Source: Sphingobacteriales bacterium
GTDB taxonomy: Bacteria; Bacteroidota; Bacteroidia; Chitinophagales; CAIOSU01
DNA: 64,000 nucleotides
NCBI GenBank assembly: GCA_027486795.1
Contig: JAIXOI010000023.1
Span: forward strand, 186,001 to 250,000
Direction: 5' to 3'
Shown: positions 21,786-29,794 of the stretch, piece by piece
Layout of the letters: the number at the start of each line of letters is the position of its first letter
Numbering within the stretch: position 1 is the first letter of the stretch
Notes under the pieces: model-generated
What the model saw: the letters and a program-made list of their open reading frames with translations, nothing else
Told to the model about the DNA's origin: nothing
The model's database searches: none
Position numbers and translations under genes: made by a program

Positions 21786-21828
21786 GTGTCATGGTGAGTC
21801 TCGTTTGAAACGACACTCACCATGACAC
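21786..21828. repeat. Long REP-like intergenic palindrome
   Basis: A 14-base arm (21786-21799) pairs perfectly with 21815-21828. Inside, after one C-C mismatch, TCGTTT pairs with AAACGA. The whole 43 bases can form one long hairpin without a T-run on either side, so it is not an ordinary terminator. The CATGGTGAG arm resembles REP-type intergenic palindromes known in many bacteria. No second copy was noticed in the window. Confidence 0.6.
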
Positions 21829-23205: not shown

Positions 23206-25200
23206 CTATGCTTCAATAAGCTGATTAAACGCTGCAATGTGCTCAGGTCTGCCAAACACAAACAGTATGTCGTCGGTTTCTATTTGGGTTTCAATGTCAA
23301 TGTCGGTAAGGTACATATCGTTTCGCTTAATAGCCAATAAAGTTACGTGATGCTTTTTGCGCAGCTGGCAATCGGCAATGCTTTTGCCTACAACCTCGTT
23401 GCTATTGCTGGTTACTTTTAGGGTAGATATCTCAATATCAGGTATTTGCAGTGCAGCACCCTTTTCTTCATTACCGTTTGCCACTGGTCGAAACATTCTA
23501 TAGCTGCCCTCTCTAATTTGCCCAATAAACTGCTCCACTTCATCTTGTGGCACCAAATACTTGCTCAATACCCTTGAGAAAATTTCTATAGAGGTCTCGA
23601 ATTCTTCAGGTATCACCTCATTAGCGCCTAAGCTATAATTATCGGCCATTTCCTGAATAAACCTCGTGCGGATAATGATGTGTGGTTTTTGTGATATGCC
23701 ACGGATGCTTACAATAATGCGTTTGGTAGCCTCTGGGTCGCTAATGGCTACTACTACTACCCTTGCCAACTGTATGTTAATGTGCGTGAGTATAGGCTCT
23801 TGCGTGGCATCGCCAAAGTAAATGGGTTCTCCCTTGGCCCGTTCATCACGCACTGTGTCGGGGTTAAGTTCTAATATTACGTAGGGGATGTTGGCAAATC
23901 GGGCGGCCTTGGCCACGTTTTTACCGTTAATGCCATAGCCAATAATAACAAGGTGGTCGTTAAAGTCATACGCTGCGTGTTCGGCATCCGATGCATGCCT
24001 AGGATGGTACATGATACGGCTAAAATTCTTCGGCAATGGGGTTTTAACCAGCACGGCCAATATAACATCGGAGTATTTAAATACAAATGGCGTAGCGGCC
24101 ATAGTCATTAGCGATATGGCAAGGAAATACTGGTACAACTCGTCGCTCAGCAAGTTATACTCCAAACCGGTTTTGCTAAGGATAAAGGCAAACTCGCCCA
24201 CCTGAAACAACGCCAAACCAGTAAGTAGCACCGTGCGTATGGGGTAGCGCAGCACCAATGCCGCCAAGGAGGCAATCAGCGCTTTGGCCACCATAACCGT
24301 AAAAGCAAACAATAGCACCCAACCTAAGTGGCTTACAAAAAATTGCACATCCAATAGCATCCCTATTGATACAAAGAAGAAACTGGTAAATATTTCGCGG
24401 AAGGGCAAAATGTTGGCAGTGGCCTGATGGCTATATTCGCTTTCGGAGATAATTAACCCAGCCATAAAAGCGCCTAATGCCAGCGATAGACCGGCTATTG
24501 ACGTCATCCATGCTACCGAAAAGCACAGCACCACAACGGTAAGCACAAACAGCTCTTTACTTTTGGTGCGAGCCACGGCATAAAGTAGGCGAGGCACTAC
24601 ATAACGGGAACCCATTATTACTGCCAATATTACGGCAAAGGCTTTGCCAACAAGTATTAATATAGCCTCCCATAAATTGCCGCCATCACCAACCATTAAA
24701 GGCGTAACCAACATCATGGGCACCACAATAATATCTTGATAGATAAGTATAGCCAACGATATTTTACCGTGCGGGGTATTCATTGCACCGCTTTCTTGCA
24801 ATAGCTTTAGTACAATGGCAGTACTACTGAGCGCAAACAAAAAGCCCATGAATATGGAAGAGGTAAGCGCCTGTCCCGTAAGATAGAAGCTGAGTGCCGT
24901 AACACCAATGGTAGCAAACACCTGCACCGAGCCGCCCACAAAAACGGTCTTTTTGATGGCCATCAAACTCTTGAGCGAAAACTCCAACCCGATGACAAAA
25001 AGCAGCAGTATGACCCCTATTTCTGCCAATACTTCAACCTCATGGGTAGCCTTTATCAAACTAAAGCCAGAAGGGCCAATTAAAACGCCGGTAAGCAAAA
25101 AACCCAATATAGTAGGCAGCTTCAATCGCTGGAAAATCAATATTACCAGCACCGAAAGGCCCAAAATAATTACTACCTCTTGCAGTAAAGGTATTTGCAT
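23206..25200 (-). CDS. Monovalent cation:proton antiporter-2 (KefB/CPA2 type)
   Basis: A 664-residue protein of the CPA2 family that exchanges K+ or Na+ for protons across the inner membrane. Residues 1-385 form about 12 membrane segments of the Na+/H+ exchanger fold (LPTILGFLLTGVLIGPSG; the QDIIVVPMML region). A TrkA-N/RCK nucleotide-binding domain starts at VIIGYGINGKNVAKAARF near 415, and a TrkA-C domain occupies about 580-664. This RCK-N/RCK-C layout fits ligand-gated KefB/C-like transport. It was probably once the downstream neighbour of the VOC gene (see the fragment at 25291). Confidence 0.93.
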   Translation of the reverse strand: MQIPLLQEVVIILGLSVLVILIFQRLKLPTILGFLLTGVLIGPSGFSLIKATHEVEVLAEIGVILLLFVIGLEFSLKSLMAIKKTVFVGGSVQVFATIGVTALSFYLTGQALTSSIFMGFLFALSSTAIVLKLLQESGAMNTPHGKISLAILIYQDIIVVPMMLVTPLMVGDGGNLWEAILILVGKAFAVILAVIMGSRYVVPRLLYAVARTKSKELFVLTVVVLCFSVAWMTSIAGLSLALGAFMAGLIISESEYSHQATANILPFREIFTSFFFVSIGMLLDVQFFVSHLGWVLLFAFTVMVAKALIASLAALVLRYPIRTVLLTGLALFQVGEFAFILSKTGLEYNLLSDELYQYFLAISLMTMAATPFVFKYSDVILAVLVKTPLPKNFSRIMYHPRHASDAEHAAYDFNDHLVIIGYGINGKNVAKAARFANIPYVILELNPDTVRDERAKGEPIYFGDATQEPILTHINIQLARVVVVAISDPEATKRIIVSIRGISQKPHIIIRTRFIQEMADNYSLGANEVIPEEFETSIEIFSRVLSKYLVPQDEVEQFIGQIREGSYRMFRPVANGNEEKGAALQIPDIEISTLKVTSNSNEVVGKSIADCQLRKKHHVTLLAIKRNDMYLTDIDIETQIETDDILFVFGRPEHIAAFNQLIEA

Positions 25201-25290
25201 CCGCTTTTACGTTTGCGGTAAAAATACGGAATTGGAGCGTTGGGTGTGGTTAAAATGGTATTAACTAACCTTGTTTAACCAAACTGGCAA

Positions 25291-25362
25291 TTACAACTGC
25301 TGCGTTATCCACCAAGTATTGCCCCAAGGGTCGGTAACGTCGTAAATGTAGTATTTAAACAT
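25291..25362 (-). pseudogene. Detached 3' end of a VOC (glyoxalase-like) gene
   Basis: The 23 codons read MFKYYIYDVTDPWGNTWWITQQL then stop. The segment VTDPWGNTWWITQQL is identical to the C-terminus of the intact VOC protein encoded 2.5 kb away (27843-28229), and the DNA matches at 44 of 45 bases. The first seven residues are unrelated to that protein. It is either a leftover 3' end displaced by an insertion, or the remains of a second VOC gene. It is not expected to be a working gene. Confidence 0.75.
25295..25339. repeat. 45-base direct repeat, left copy
   Basis: Matches 27850-27894 at 44 of 45 bases, in the same orientation; the only difference is C for T at the ninth base. The two copies bracket the AT-rich three-gene block. 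Similarity stops abruptly on the side facing the antiporter gene. Confidence 0.9.
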
Positions 25363-25443
25363 GATGAAAATAATTTAACATCATAAAATTTTGTTGTTAT
25401 AATAAACTTGCTTTTATTTACAATAAACTAAAAACTTAACTGT

Positions 25444-26028
25444 ATGAAAAACAATTTTCCTATCGTTGCTATTGTAGGATGCATAGTAATGTTATTTGCC
25501 GGCTGCGCAAAAGAAGAGCCTAAGGAAGAGTTAACTGTTTTTTTAAGCACGACACTTAAAAAAGATGGTAACTGGCGCATTTGGATTGAAGGAGGCCAAT
25601 CCAAATTCAAGTGCGATGTTATTGGAAACACTTGCAAATTAAACTCGGGTCTAGTAATTGGGCTGAATGAAGAGCTTCAAGAAACTTATTTTCCTGGATT
25701 AACACTTGAGGAAATTGAAGTAGAAGACCCAGCATCTAATCAGGATTTACTTGACTTTTTGGCAGAGGAGGAAGATTACTATATCAGTTATGTTAAAAAC
25801 GGTACGTGGCGCATTTGGATAGTAGGCGGCGAAGTTGAAATGAGGTGCGATGTTATTGGAAATAAATGTAAACTTAATTCCGGCTTGGTTGTGGCACTTG
25901 GACAGACAGAGTTGGATTTGTTTTTCCCTGAAATGGAGATTGAAGAAATTGAGCTAGAAGACCCTGAGAACAGCATTGCACTATTGAACTATTTAGACGA
26001 ACAGGAAGAAGCATATTTTTTTGAATAA
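25444..26028 (+). CDS. Lipoprotein with an internal tandem duplication
   Basis: A 194-residue protein of unknown function. Signal peptide with lipobox LFAGC (Cys21). It consists of two copies of a 78-residue unit starting at about residues 41 and 119. Each has WRIWIxGG, a CDVIGNxCKLNSGLV core with two cysteines (57/64 and 135/142), FPxxxxEEIExEDP and an acidic end. The paired cysteines could form a disulfide in each unit. Base composition is low in G+C (21 of 60 bases at 25681-25740), unlike the flanking genes. First of three rightward genes in the repeat-bounded block. I do not recognise the family. Confidence 0.8.
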   Translation: MKNNFPIVAIVGCIVMLFAGCAKEEPKEELTVFLSTTLKKDGNWRIWIEGGQSKFKCDVIGNTCKLNSGLVIGLNEELQETYFPGLTLEEIEVEDPASNQDLLDFLAEEEDYYISYVKNGTWRIWIVGGEVEMRCDVIGNKCKLNSGLVVALGQTELDLFFPEMEIEEIELEDPENSIALLNYLDEQEEAYFFE

Positions 26029-26040
26029 AGACTCAAATAG

Positions 26041-26078
26041 AAGGGTTAGAGTCTTTAAACAATAGCTCTAACCCTTTT
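26041..26078 (+). terminator. Terminator-like hairpin after the duplicated lipoprotein
   Basis: Arms 26041-26051 and 26066-26076 pair perfectly over 11 bases with a 14-base loop and are followed by T-rich sequence. It would separate this gene from the next two. Confidence 0.65.
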
Positions 26079-26163
26079 AATTTTAATAATGTATTACTCT
26101 AAGTTTTCTGTTAAGCATAAGATAGTAATTTTAACTCCCTAAACTAAATAGCAAACCGTCAAT

Positions 26164-27342
26164 ATGCATCAAAGAATCTTACAGTTAATTTTTATAACAG
26201 TATTTGTTTCTGGCTGTGTGTCTAATGATACCCCTAGCGATACTTTAGAAAAGATGGAAACTACTAATTACACTTGGTATCTTGATTTAGGATATGAAAA
26301 GAACGCTATCGAAATCCCTTTCAATCATCAAGGCAAACCTCTTAGCTATTACACTTTCCAAGTTTATGGTGATACCTTATATCTTCACGACCAAAACGGC
26401 AATGTAGTATTATTGTTTAATTGGAGGTCAAACTCTCATTTAGGCTCGATTAGTTTGGCTCATTTGGTGAACAAAAATGGTTCTTTCCCCGGTAAGGTAC
26501 ATAATGCTTTGATTATCGGAAGGGATTCTATCATGGTAGTTCAAGACTATCGTTTAGTATTGGTTAATGGCAATGGCGACTTGCTAAATGAATGGAAAAC
26601 AGATGATCCAGATGTTGAGGATGTGCAATTTGGGCACGGTCAGTGGTATTCAAATTTCCCTATAGTATTTAAACCACAAGGAAAAGTTTACATGCAGAGG
26701 ATGCATGCAGCATGTGGCGGGGAAAATTTTGCACAATGTCCTGAATATAGCGTTGAATCTGTGTTTGATATAACGACAGGCTCTTTTGACACATTACCGA
26801 TTAAGTTCTCCTCACTATACAAAACTCGAAACTATGGACAACACCGAGAAATATCCAGAGTAGAGGTTGATGGCAACCATATCTTTTCTTTTGAGAGTGA
26901 CCCTAATTTATATAAACTTAACCTTCAAACCGAAAAGATAGATGTTGTTAATGCCCAAAGTAAGTTTCAGGTAGATGATACATTATATCGAACGTATGAG
27001 AAGGAAATGGAGATGCAAGAGATATTGGATATGTACATGCGCAGCCATCAATATGTAGGTTTATGGTACGACCCCTATCAAAATTTGATTTTTCGCTTTT
27101 TTAAAGCTCAGCAGCCGCTGATAAACGAAAATGATGAGTTTAACGGCATATCTGACAAAGAGCTATACTTGATGGTGTTTAACTCTGATTTGCAATTGCT
27201 TGGTGAAATACACGTAGGTACAACGTATCTACCTTGGGCATTTGTAACTCCAGAGGGATTTATGGTGTCTAAAATGTCTCCCAACAACAAGGAATATGAT
27301 GAAACCAGTTTATTGTTTGACGGATTTAAAATCATCCAATAA
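26164..27342 (+). CDS. DUF4221-like lipoprotein, probable beta-propeller
   Basis: A 392-residue protein. The signal peptide ends in a lipobox (FVSGC, Cys17). The body has regularly spaced beta-rich segments (HIFSFESDPNLYKLNL, WYDPYQNLIFRFF, LYLMVFNSDLQLLGEI), which resemble the DUF4221/6-bladed propeller lipoproteins of Bacteroidota. No enzyme motif is visible. Its stop codon is one base before the start of the next gene, so the two are cotranscribed. G+C is low (20 of 60 bases at 26401-26460). The family call is from memory of the pattern and should be checked. Confidence 0.75.
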   Translation: MHQRILQLIFITVFVSGCVSNDTPSDTLEKMETTNYTWYLDLGYEKNAIEIPFNHQGKPLSYYTFQVYGDTLYLHDQNGNVVLLFNWRSNSHLGSISLAHLVNKNGSFPGKVHNALIIGRDSIMVVQDYRLVLVNGNGDLLNEWKTDDPDVEDVQFGHGQWYSNFPIVFKPQGKVYMQRMHAACGGENFAQCPEYSVESVFDITTGSFDTLPIKFSSLYKTRNYGQHREISRVEVDGNHIFSFESDPNLYKLNLQTEKIDVVNAQSKFQVDDTLYRTYEKEMEMQEILDMYMRSHQYVGLWYDPYQNLIFRFFKAQQPLINENDEFNGISDKELYLMVFNSDLQLLGEIHVGTTYLPWAFVTPEGFMVSKMSPNNKEYDETSLLFDGFKIIQ

Positions 27343-27343
27343 T

Positions 27344-27832
27344 ATGCAAGGCATTTATTTTGGGGCGATACTTTTATTATTGGTTTCTTGTAACCAGCAA
27401 ACGCAAGAAAAAACAATTGTTGGTGAGAAACCATTTGCTAAGGAGAAATATTTAGTTCGTTATTTGAAGCAAGAAGTTAAAAATACCGGCTGTAAGGCCG
27501 CTATTGATGCTAAATGGACAATAATTATTCAAGCCGCTAACTGCGGGAACTGTGATATCAGAACCCTAAGATTACTTGAAAAGGTACTGGAGCTAAGTAA
27601 TGATGGCTATGTTGTGTTTACCTCAAAATTATCTGGTGCCGAAAAAATAGATTCAACAATCAGCCATAACTGTGTTTATTATGATGAGGGAAATTATAGT
27701 AAATATGGATTATTCCACAAGGAAAACTATTTTTTCTTGATGGAAGACTCTGCAATCAAGCATTGGGCATATCTTACCGATGAAAATGCAGATAGCATTT
27801 CAGCTTGGTTGCAAGCATCAAACCAGCGTTAA
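27344..27832 (+). CDS. Small lipoprotein with a CxxC pair
   Basis: A 162-residue protein starting at the ATG one base after the preceding stop; a longer frame upstream adds 16 residues that overlap the previous gene and precede the signal peptide. The lipobox is LVSC (Cys16). IIIQAANCGNC at 61-70 puts a CxxC after a beta strand, as in thioredoxin-fold proteins, but the rest is not clearly thioredoxin-like. Such genes paired with DUF4221-type propellers are plausible surface or periplasmic partners. Low G+C (20 of 60 at 27601-27660). Function unknown. Confidence 0.75.
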   Translation: MQGIYFGAILLLLVSCNQQTQEKTIVGEKPFAKEKYLVRYLKQEVKNTGCKAAIDAKWTIIIQAANCGNCDIRTLRLLEKVLELSNDGYVVFTSKLSGAEKIDSTISHNCVYYDEGNYSKYGLFHKENYFFLMEDSAIKHWAYLTDENADSISAWLQASNQR

Positions 27833-27842
27833 TAGACTTCTT

Positions 27843-28229
27843 TTATCCTAACTGCTGTGTTATCCACCAAGTATTGCCCCAAGGGTCGGTAACGCCGCAG
27901 GTGCGACCATAGGGTTGGTTGCTAATGGGCATTACGCTGGTAGCGCCATTGTCCAATGCTTTTTGGTACGTTTCATCTGTATTGGCTACATAGATAAACA
28001 TGCCCGCATTAGCCACCTTCCACTGGTCGGTGGCCTCGCCAACCATTATATAACTATCATCCAAGCGCAGCTCACCGTGCATTAAGGTTTTACCATCTTC
28101 TTTGTAATGTATTTCAGCTTTCTCGGCACCTAAAACGGTTTCAGCAAAATCAAGAAAGGCTGCTCCGTTCTCCAAAATCAAATAGGGTATTACACGGTTG
28201 AAGCCCTCTGGCCTTGGCACATTGCCCAT
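27843..28229 (-). CDS. VOC family protein (PhnB/glyoxalase-like)
   Basis: A 128-residue single-domain VOC-fold protein: VIPYLILENGAAFLDFAE at the start, LMHGELRLDDSYIMVGEA in the middle, VTDPWGNTWWITQQLG at the end. This PhnB-like branch is cytoplasmic and usually of unknown substrate. Its 3' end is the source or twin of the 45-base repeat at 25295. The ancestral downstream neighbour was probably the antiporter gene, now separated by the three-lipoprotein block. Confidence 0.9.
   Translation of the reverse strand: MGNVPRPEGFNRVIPYLILENGAAFLDFAETVLGAEKAEIHYKEDGKTLMHGELRLDDSYIMVGEATDQWKVANAGMFIYVANTDETYQKALDNGATSVMPISNQPYGRTCGVTDPWGNTWWITQQLG
27850..27894. repeat. 45-base direct repeat, right copy (inside the VOC gene 3' end)
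   Basis: Encodes the last residues before the final glycine of the VOC protein. Matches 25295-25339 at 44 of 45 bases. Together the copies bound a 2.5 kb segment. Confidence 0.9.
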
Positions 28230-28447: not shown

Positions 28448-29794
28448 CTAGTACACAATCACCGTGTCCTGGTTTTTGCGGCCCATCCAATTGCGGATGA
28501 TGCGGTGGGCATCGGGGGTATCGGGCTTGCGGTTTACGGCTTCTTTAAGCGAGTCTACATCGTTTTCAATGTACTCCGGCTCAAAGTAGCCAATGCCCAT
28601 AAACCGGTGGTTCTCTATCCAAACAATACTCTGTTCGTGGTGCGAGCGGCCTTCGCCAACAATAAAGAAATTGGGGTTATTGTATTGGTATTTGCTCAGC
28701 AACCGGTTCAGCTTATTGTTGTACAACACCGGCGGAATGTCGGGCAATTTACTTTCACCGTTTTCAATAAAACCACACAGTGCACTGTATAGGCCATTGC
28801 GGCTAACCATGCGCTTTAGTACCGCTACAGCGCTCTTCCGCGTGGTAAACTCCACCAGCGGACGCTCTTCGCTGCGGTTGGCAATAGCATCTACATGAAG
28901 GTTAACATACCCGTAGTCATCGGTAAAATGATACACTCCATACCTATAATTTCGGCGGCGCTGTGCAGGGTTGTAAATGGGTTGTTGCCTTATTACCTCT
29001 TCGGTTTCTATTAGTTGGGCCACCAATTCGCTACCCGTTACGTCATACGATATATCGGCAATGGCGCTTCGCAAAGCACTATACTTATGGTCGGCCAAAT
29101 CTTTGGTGAGCAGCTCAACAATGCGCTTACGCAGGTTGCGCCCTTTGCCAAGGTAAAGTACCTTGCCCTCCTTGTCGTGCAGCGTAAACACACCTGTATC
29201 TTCCGGTAGGTCTTCAACAATCTCAAAGTTAAGGTTAGGCACCTCTTCTAGCCCAGTCAACTCCAACTCCAGCATATTGTGTAGCACCTTGTCTTTATCT
29301 TCATGCAACAAGCGCGTAAACAACTCGGCAGTGGCAGCCGCATCGCCGTATGCGCGGTGCCGCCCTTCTAGGTTGATGCCTATCTCACGGCAAAGCTTGC
29401 CAAGGCTATAGCTTTGGCAACCTGGCAATACTCGGCGGCTAAATTTTACAGTACACAATTGTTTGCGGTCGAACCTCACGCCCATGCGCCTAAACTCGTT
29501 GCGCAGCACTCCATAATCGAAGCTTACGTTGTGGGCTACAAAAATGCGGCCCTTGGTCATTTCCAATATTCGCTCAGCTACCTCCTCAAATGTTGGGGAG
29601 TTCTTCACCATCGCATCATTTATGCCCGTAAGTTTTTTGATAAATGGCGCAATGGGCACTTTTGGGTTGATAAGGGTAGAAAATTCCTCCACCACTCGAG
29701 TTCCGTCGTGCACAATGATGGCAATTTCCATCACTTTATCTTTGGCAGGATTACCGCCCGTAGTTTCTGTATCTATTATAGCAAACATAATCAC
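28448..29794 (-). CDS. DnaQ-type exonuclease fused to a GIY-YIG nuclease domain
   Basis: A 448-residue protein. Residues 1-165 are a DEDD 3'-5' exonuclease like DNA polymerase III epsilon (FAIIDTETTGG, FVAHNVSFDYGVLRNEF, HRAYGDAAATAELF). From about 200 a GIY-YIG/UvrC-N-like domain begins (GVFTLHDKEGKVLYLGKG). The rest (DDYGYVNL, SRNGLYSALCGF) has no motif I recognise. It is probably a DNA repair or processing nuclease; this fusion is known in Bacteroidota and other phyla. ATG codons at 29794 and 29788 are both possible. It begins 13 bases after the upstream lipase-like gene stops. Confidence 0.92.
   Translation of the reverse strand: MIMFAIIDTETTGGNPAKDKVMEIAIIVHDGTRVVEEFSTLINPKVPIAPFIKKLTGINDAMVKNSPTFEEVAERILEMTKGRIFVAHNVSFDYGVLRNEFRRMGVRFDRKQLCTVKFSRRVLPGCQSYSLGKLCREIGINLEGRHRAYGDAAATAELFTRLLHEDKDKVLHNMLELELTGLEEVPNLNFEIVEDLPEDTGVFTLHDKEGKVLYLGKGRNLRKRIVELLTKDLADHKYSALRSAIADISYDVTGSELVAQLIETEEVIRQQPIYNPAQRRRNYRYGVYHFTDDYGYVNLHVDAIANRSEERPLVEFTTRKSAVAVLKRMVSRNGLYSALCGFIENGESKLPDIPPVLYNNKLNRLLSKYQYNNPNFFIVGEGRSHHEQSIVWIENHRFMGIGYFEPEYIENDVDSLKEAVNRKPDTPDAHRIIRNWMGRKNQDTVIVY

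Follow-up and report, generated by a model that had tools for sequence, protein, structure and literature searches.

The window analysed here is a 64,000-nucleotide stretch of a Sphingobacteriales bacterium genome (GCA_027486795.1, contig JAIXOI010000023.1; G000:C28:186001-250000 in our labelling, where G000 is the source genome), which was compared with four other genomes of the genus, designated G001, G002, G003, and G004. The locus of interest consists of three lipoprotein genes enclosed by two copies of a direct repeat, with a Na+/H+ antiporter gene on the left and a VOC gene on the right. The features are given below in window coordinates.

23206–25200, minus strand: Na+/H+ antiporter with TrkA domains; directly adjoins VOC in the empty-site genomes
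25295–25342, minus strand: left repeat copy, a detached VOC 3' end (DVTDPWGNTWWITQQL-stop); same junction in G003
25343–27849, no strand: inserted AT-rich segment, 35.6% G+C; missing from the corresponding place in G004 and G001
25444–26028, plus strand: lp1, lipoprotein with two ~78-aa repeats
26164–27342, plus strand: lp2, DUF4221 lipoprotein (PF13970, E=4.7e-21)
27344–27832, plus strand: lp3, small lipoprotein with a CGNC motif; low-confidence structure model
27850–27897, minus strand: right repeat copy, within the 3' end of the intact VOC gene
27843–28229, minus strand: intact VOC (glyoxalase-fold) gene, C-terminus QQLG-stop

The direct repeat is 48 nt long with 46/48 identical positions, and the 45-base repeat (44/45) reported in the original prediction was recovered as its core. 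Exact direct repeats in the window reach a maximum length of 36 nt, compared with 15–17 nt in ten first-order Markov resamples; the 48-nt repeat is far beyond chance. In the stretch of its own contig that was first examined, 224 kb long, no other local direct repeat of this class occurred; a second one, of 89 nt, lies further along on the same contig. As predicted, the right copy belongs to an intact VOC gene, whose 3' end it forms, and the left copy is that same end with its own proper stop codon, detached from any gene body, its match to VOC being limited to residues 112–127. A tandem VOC duplication followed by decay was rejected, as there is no full or decaying second VOC gene and only residues 112–127 are present at the left copy.

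The G+C content of the insert, 35.6% against 45.0%, is the lowest of all 2.5-kb windows in the 224 kb, and GC3 is 0.33–0.36 in the block genes as opposed to 0.45–0.56 in the flanking genes, so that the AT-richness first estimated by hand counts was borne out. Among the domain matches of the three block ORFs there was no recombinase, in agreement with the earlier reading that integrase and transposase are missing. An insertion sequence or composite transposon was likewise rejected, as no inverted repeat pair occurs at the ends, no transposase is present, and the duplication is 48 nt rather than 2–14 bp.

Two further observations concern the region to the left. In the N-terminal part of the antiporter gene (window 24700-25250), just beside the block, dS between G000 and G003 is 0.50, compared with 0.21 in the rest of the gene, and this stretch is probably a recombined patch. 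In addition, a long near-perfect palindrome (GTGTCATGGTGAG...CTCACCATGACAC) is located at window 21786-21828, and similar palindromes occur at G003:C3:374832 and G000:C49:27167; these three are perhaps members of a small palindromic intergenic repeat family.

Gene content and selection

The three rightward genes between the repeat copies all have lipobox-like N-termini (MLFAGC, FVSGC, and LLVSC), consistent with their predicted identity as lipoproteins. The two ~78-aa copies in lp1 carry the motif WRIW...CDVIGN.CKLNSG, and matches to lp1 and lp3 were confined to this genus among the 99 genomes searched. A relative of lp2 has a solved structure (3s9j). The lp3 model (mean pLDDT 52.8) probably has a thioredoxin-like topology, which at this low confidence serves as a topology hint only; the lp1 model (mean pLDDT 39.9) was left out of the interpretation.

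Between G000 and G003, dN/dS of the block genes is approximately 0.07–0.15, and on this measure they are under purifying selection and maintained. The cassette is therefore not a remnant, and the suggestion that it might be a cargo remnant is disfavoured; the three-gene unit is also present in G001. Synonymous changes between G000 and G003 amount to 27/447 sites in the block and 911/5266 sites in the flanking genes, a low divergence which hints that the two lineages have exchanged the block. A mobile vehicle for the block was sought and rejected, as searches found no relatives of lp1 or lp2 in viral contigs, and none of lp2 in plasmids or phages.

Comparison with related genomes

The sister genome G003 carries the block with both repeat copies and the same junctions as G000, that is, an inherited junction, whereas in G004 and G001 the VOC gene directly adjoins the antiporter gene with a single repeat copy. 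The VOC gene was not found in G002. Because the site is occupied in G003 and empty in G004 and G001, the block is, on comparative grounds, an insertion at the VOC 3' end. No loss of resident DNA is apparent at the site relative to G004 or G001; instead, 48 nt are duplicated. The divergence of VOC from G004 equals that of its neighbour genes, which indicates that VOC is native. Thus, the part of the original prediction stating that the block entered at the VOC end, left the gene intact, and displaced the old end to a position beside the antiporter gene agrees with the related genomes, including the empty site with VOC directly followed by the antiporter gene.

The same three genes occur in the same order at an unrelated place in G001, with protein identities of 54–62%. 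The G001 cassette has a G+C content of 36.8% and neighbours an isocitrate dehydrogenase-like gene; a search for a flanking repeat around it found none, and the cassette is absent from the isocitrate dehydrogenase-like gene locus in G000, G002, and G003. One might suppose that the block was ancestral at the VOC site and was precisely lost through repeat recombination in G004 and G001. Crossing-over between the direct repeats would indeed yield a clean site with one copy, and a homologous cassette does exist in G001. However, the block would have had to be lost twice independently, and neither the repeat itself, nor the AT-rich composition, nor the different place in G001 would be accounted for, so that this reading is hard to credit.

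Both repeat copies of the block share bases absent from G004 and G001. They differ from each other at only two sites, where a test for two alleles is powerless. No genome with the cassette adjoining VOC and lacking the left copy was found among those compared, and the donor arrangement for the block itself was thus unseen. The other presence/absence differences between G000 and G003 in the 224 kb were mostly without long flanking repeats, so most gene gain and loss there proceeds by another route, for example, flanking homology.

Similar inserts in the genus

A scan for local direct repeats covered approximately 1.9 Mb of the genus, and its matches include non-events such as low-complexity sequence, terminators, and repeats inside genes. 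Inserts of 0.4–2.8 kb were found between mutually unrelated repeats of 38–390 nt, many of them placed at gene ends, with cargo including Fic, RhuM-Fic, HsdR_N, and oxidoreductase genes. Empty sites were sought by a joined-flank search. The cases are as follows.

G003:C3, 62-nt repeat: RhuM-Fic gene at the start of a pseudouridine synthase-like gene; also occupied in G000 and G002
G003:C3, 390-nt repeat: clean empty site in G000 and G002
G003:C3, 46-nt repeat: HsdR_N gene; clean empty site in G000 and G002
G003:C3, 43-nt repeat: Fic gene; occupied in G000 and G004
G003:C3, 40-nt repeat: FMN oxidoreductase at a gene end; also occupied in G000 and G002
G003:C5: cases with 54-nt and 57-nt repeats
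G000:C49: second insert at the 40-nt site
G000:C28: 89-nt repeat (case H)

Since the repeats share no sequence, they argue against one site-specific enzyme. The original prediction had proposed that the block entered as integrating elements do. Integrative elements can use gene 3' ends as attachment sites, and the block resembles them in that the gene end is restored and the old end displaced, while it differs in having neither an integrase nor an attachment sequence common to the inserts. Site-specific integration of a degenerate element with the VOC 3' end as its attachment site would account for this geometry and for the AT-rich cargo. It is nevertheless most improbable, given that the block holds no recombinase, that the sibling inserts (38–390 nt) use unrelated repeats, and that viral contigs yielded no match to a degenerate VOC-end pattern. 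Nor is the repeat reused elsewhere: in 60 genomes, the 28-nt core (with up to 3 mismatches) was limited to the pair described here, in G000 and G003, and to a single occurrence in the VOC gene of G004. The alternative that the prediction had left beside this one, a recombination product, is the part of its reading of the origin that holds.

Three loci were noted in addition. At G000:C49:27275-30100 (loci L191-L195), an endonuclease-family gene end of 38-42 nt is present in three copies, and these enclose two separate inserts, one being an FMN oxidoreductase and the other a 492-aa gene; of the two, G003 has only the first. At G003:C3:335000-339400 (loci L126 and L153), a Fic gene sits between 43-nt terminator repeats together with a 173-nt copy of the start of an EamA-type transporter gene, in a nested arrangement; as this copy adjoins the Fic gene just as in G004, it is read as donor flank carried along rather than as an independent insertion. 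At G003:C3:312217-314100 (locus L125), a D12-class adenine methyltransferase gene lies beside a duplicated mutL start (92 nt).

The clearest sibling is case H (loci L094, L130, and L131), with repeat copies at G000:C28:91934-92022 and 94809-94897. Its cargo, a thioredoxin-like gene and a cytochrome-like secreted gene, shares 95.5–97.8% identity with G001, beginning at the repeat boundary, whereas the DUF1015-like host gene is only 84–89% identical. We read the insert as a recent transfer between species of the genus. In G001, too, this cargo directly adjoins the DUF1015-like gene. The two repeat copies belong to the resident type (0 and 1 difference from G002, 14–15 from G001), and G002 has the repeat once, adjoining the downstream flank. 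At the far end is a chimeric ORF (94497-94805) in which the end of an exonuclease gene is fused to the start of a lyase gene, the exonuclease part resembling the gene at window 28448-29794. G000 also carries a small gene pair at the downstream flank, by appearance probably a toxin-antitoxin pair. The pattern fits homologous pairing where the neighbour gene of the donor matches the recipient, with illegitimate joining at the other side.

In the 390-nt case, 10 of the 11 sites at which the copies differ also vary between the empty-site alleles of G000 and G002 (two-allele test, P = 5e-8; permuted within codon positions, P < 1e-4), and the test was also significant for the 173-nt case. This suggests that the 390-nt copies are two natural alleles, a pattern that points to an imported arm, or to exchange at a later time, more readily than to copying of the resident target.

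Discussion

Insertion with long, variable target duplication was described in Helicobacter pylori by Nobusato, Uchiyama, Ohashi, and Kobayashi in 2000, as represented in the papers citing it (PMC1643837, PMC3031569, PMC4978471), and in Helicobacter such inserts often carry restriction-modification genes according to two of these papers (PMC1643837, PMC4978471). As far as those citing papers describe it, the likeness lies in the long variable direct repeat, the one-copy empty allele in relatives, and the lack of a transposase. The 48-nt repeat is in single copy at the G004 and G001 empty sites, and the events differ in both the length (38 to 390 nt) and the sequence of their repeats, which are unrelated. 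The cargo differs, being mainly restriction-modification genes in the cases so described and three lipoproteins here; one sibling insert does carry HsdR_N, and the methyltransferase/mutL arrangement at L125 recalls the restriction-modification link. The block is a case of this known pattern with lipoprotein cargo.

Concerning the route, we consider it more likely than not that the insertion arose by homologous recombination on one side, combined with illegitimate joining on the other. A DNA fragment from a related cell would carry the cassette beside its own VOC 3' end, where it would undergo homologous recombination with the VOC end of the recipient; at its opposite end, the fragment would join illegitimately inside the same short segment. 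The outcome would be an intact VOC gene and a surplus 48-nt copy of its end next to the antiporter gene, so that in the window the intact VOC side would correspond to the homologous side and the detached left copy to the illegitimate one. We infer the donor with its cassette beside VOC, the order of the steps, and the means of DNA entry; a donor-like arrangement, with cargo beside target-homologous DNA, is observed in one sibling, case H. Case H suggests the one-sided route because its cargo adjoins the same host gene in G001. Against this route stand the unseen donor arrangement, the G001 cassette, which lies beside the isocitrate dehydrogenase-like gene without a flanking repeat, and the 390-nt copies, which look like two alleles.

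Homology-facilitated illegitimate recombination shares with this route the homology at one end, the illegitimate joining at the other, and the kilobase size of the inserts. Its usual product involves deletion of resident DNA, and insertions that are homologous at one end or derived from truncated circles can duplicate the locus (PMC3240628 and work cited there). As the present events show duplication (48 nt; 38–390 nt in the other cases) in place of deletion, the block works like homology-facilitated illegitimate recombination and is not to be equated with it.

Two other accounts were weighed against one-sided recombination. A single crossover of a re-circularised donor fragment, holding the cassette and a truncated VOC end, would make the two copies donor and recipient alleles. 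Duplications of 109–950 bp have been made so in E. coli (PMC3240628), the 390-nt copies resemble two alleles, and the similarity of the right VOC copy to the G004 VOC end continues past the stop codon. In case H, however, both copies are resident-type and neither is donor-type, and since both copies in the block share bases absent from G004 and G001, the donor of a circular fragment must have been a very close relative; we consider this account unlikely. Alternatively, a staggered break or a replication template switch could have duplicated 48 nt of the resident VOC end during the capture of foreign DNA. This would agree with the lineage-specific bases common to both block copies and with the resident type of both case H copies, yet it leaves the case H cargo beside the same gene in G001 and the allele differences of the 390-nt case unexplained, and, for a staggered break, repeats reaching 390 nt are long. 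Moreover, a search of seven genomes gave no Ku match in the genus, so classical end joining is disfavoured. We regard such copying of the target as quite improbable.

Returning to one-sided recombination, the sibling inserts allow a tentative generalisation, which we place somewhat below an even chance: cassettes of one to three genes may spread between species of the genus without a recombinase, via one-sided homology to the flanking gene of the donor, and each arrival would be marked by a scar, a 38–390-nt copy of host sequence that is usually a gene end.

Small accessory gene clusters often turn up in bacterial genomes without a visible vehicle. The block looks like one case of a mode of gene acquisition that is known but poorly explained, and this study adds that the pattern recurs in a single uncultured genus and that a sibling case points to a route; two empty sites, one shared occupied site, and the sibling insertions make that route testable. 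If true, recombinase-free spread would supply the missing mechanism behind long target duplications, and the scars, surveyed across a genome, could serve as a record of earlier donor arrangements. Provided that the pattern holds, displaced gene ends are markers of gene gain without an integrase, and they may explain the turnover of defence-like and lipoprotein cassettes between close relatives.
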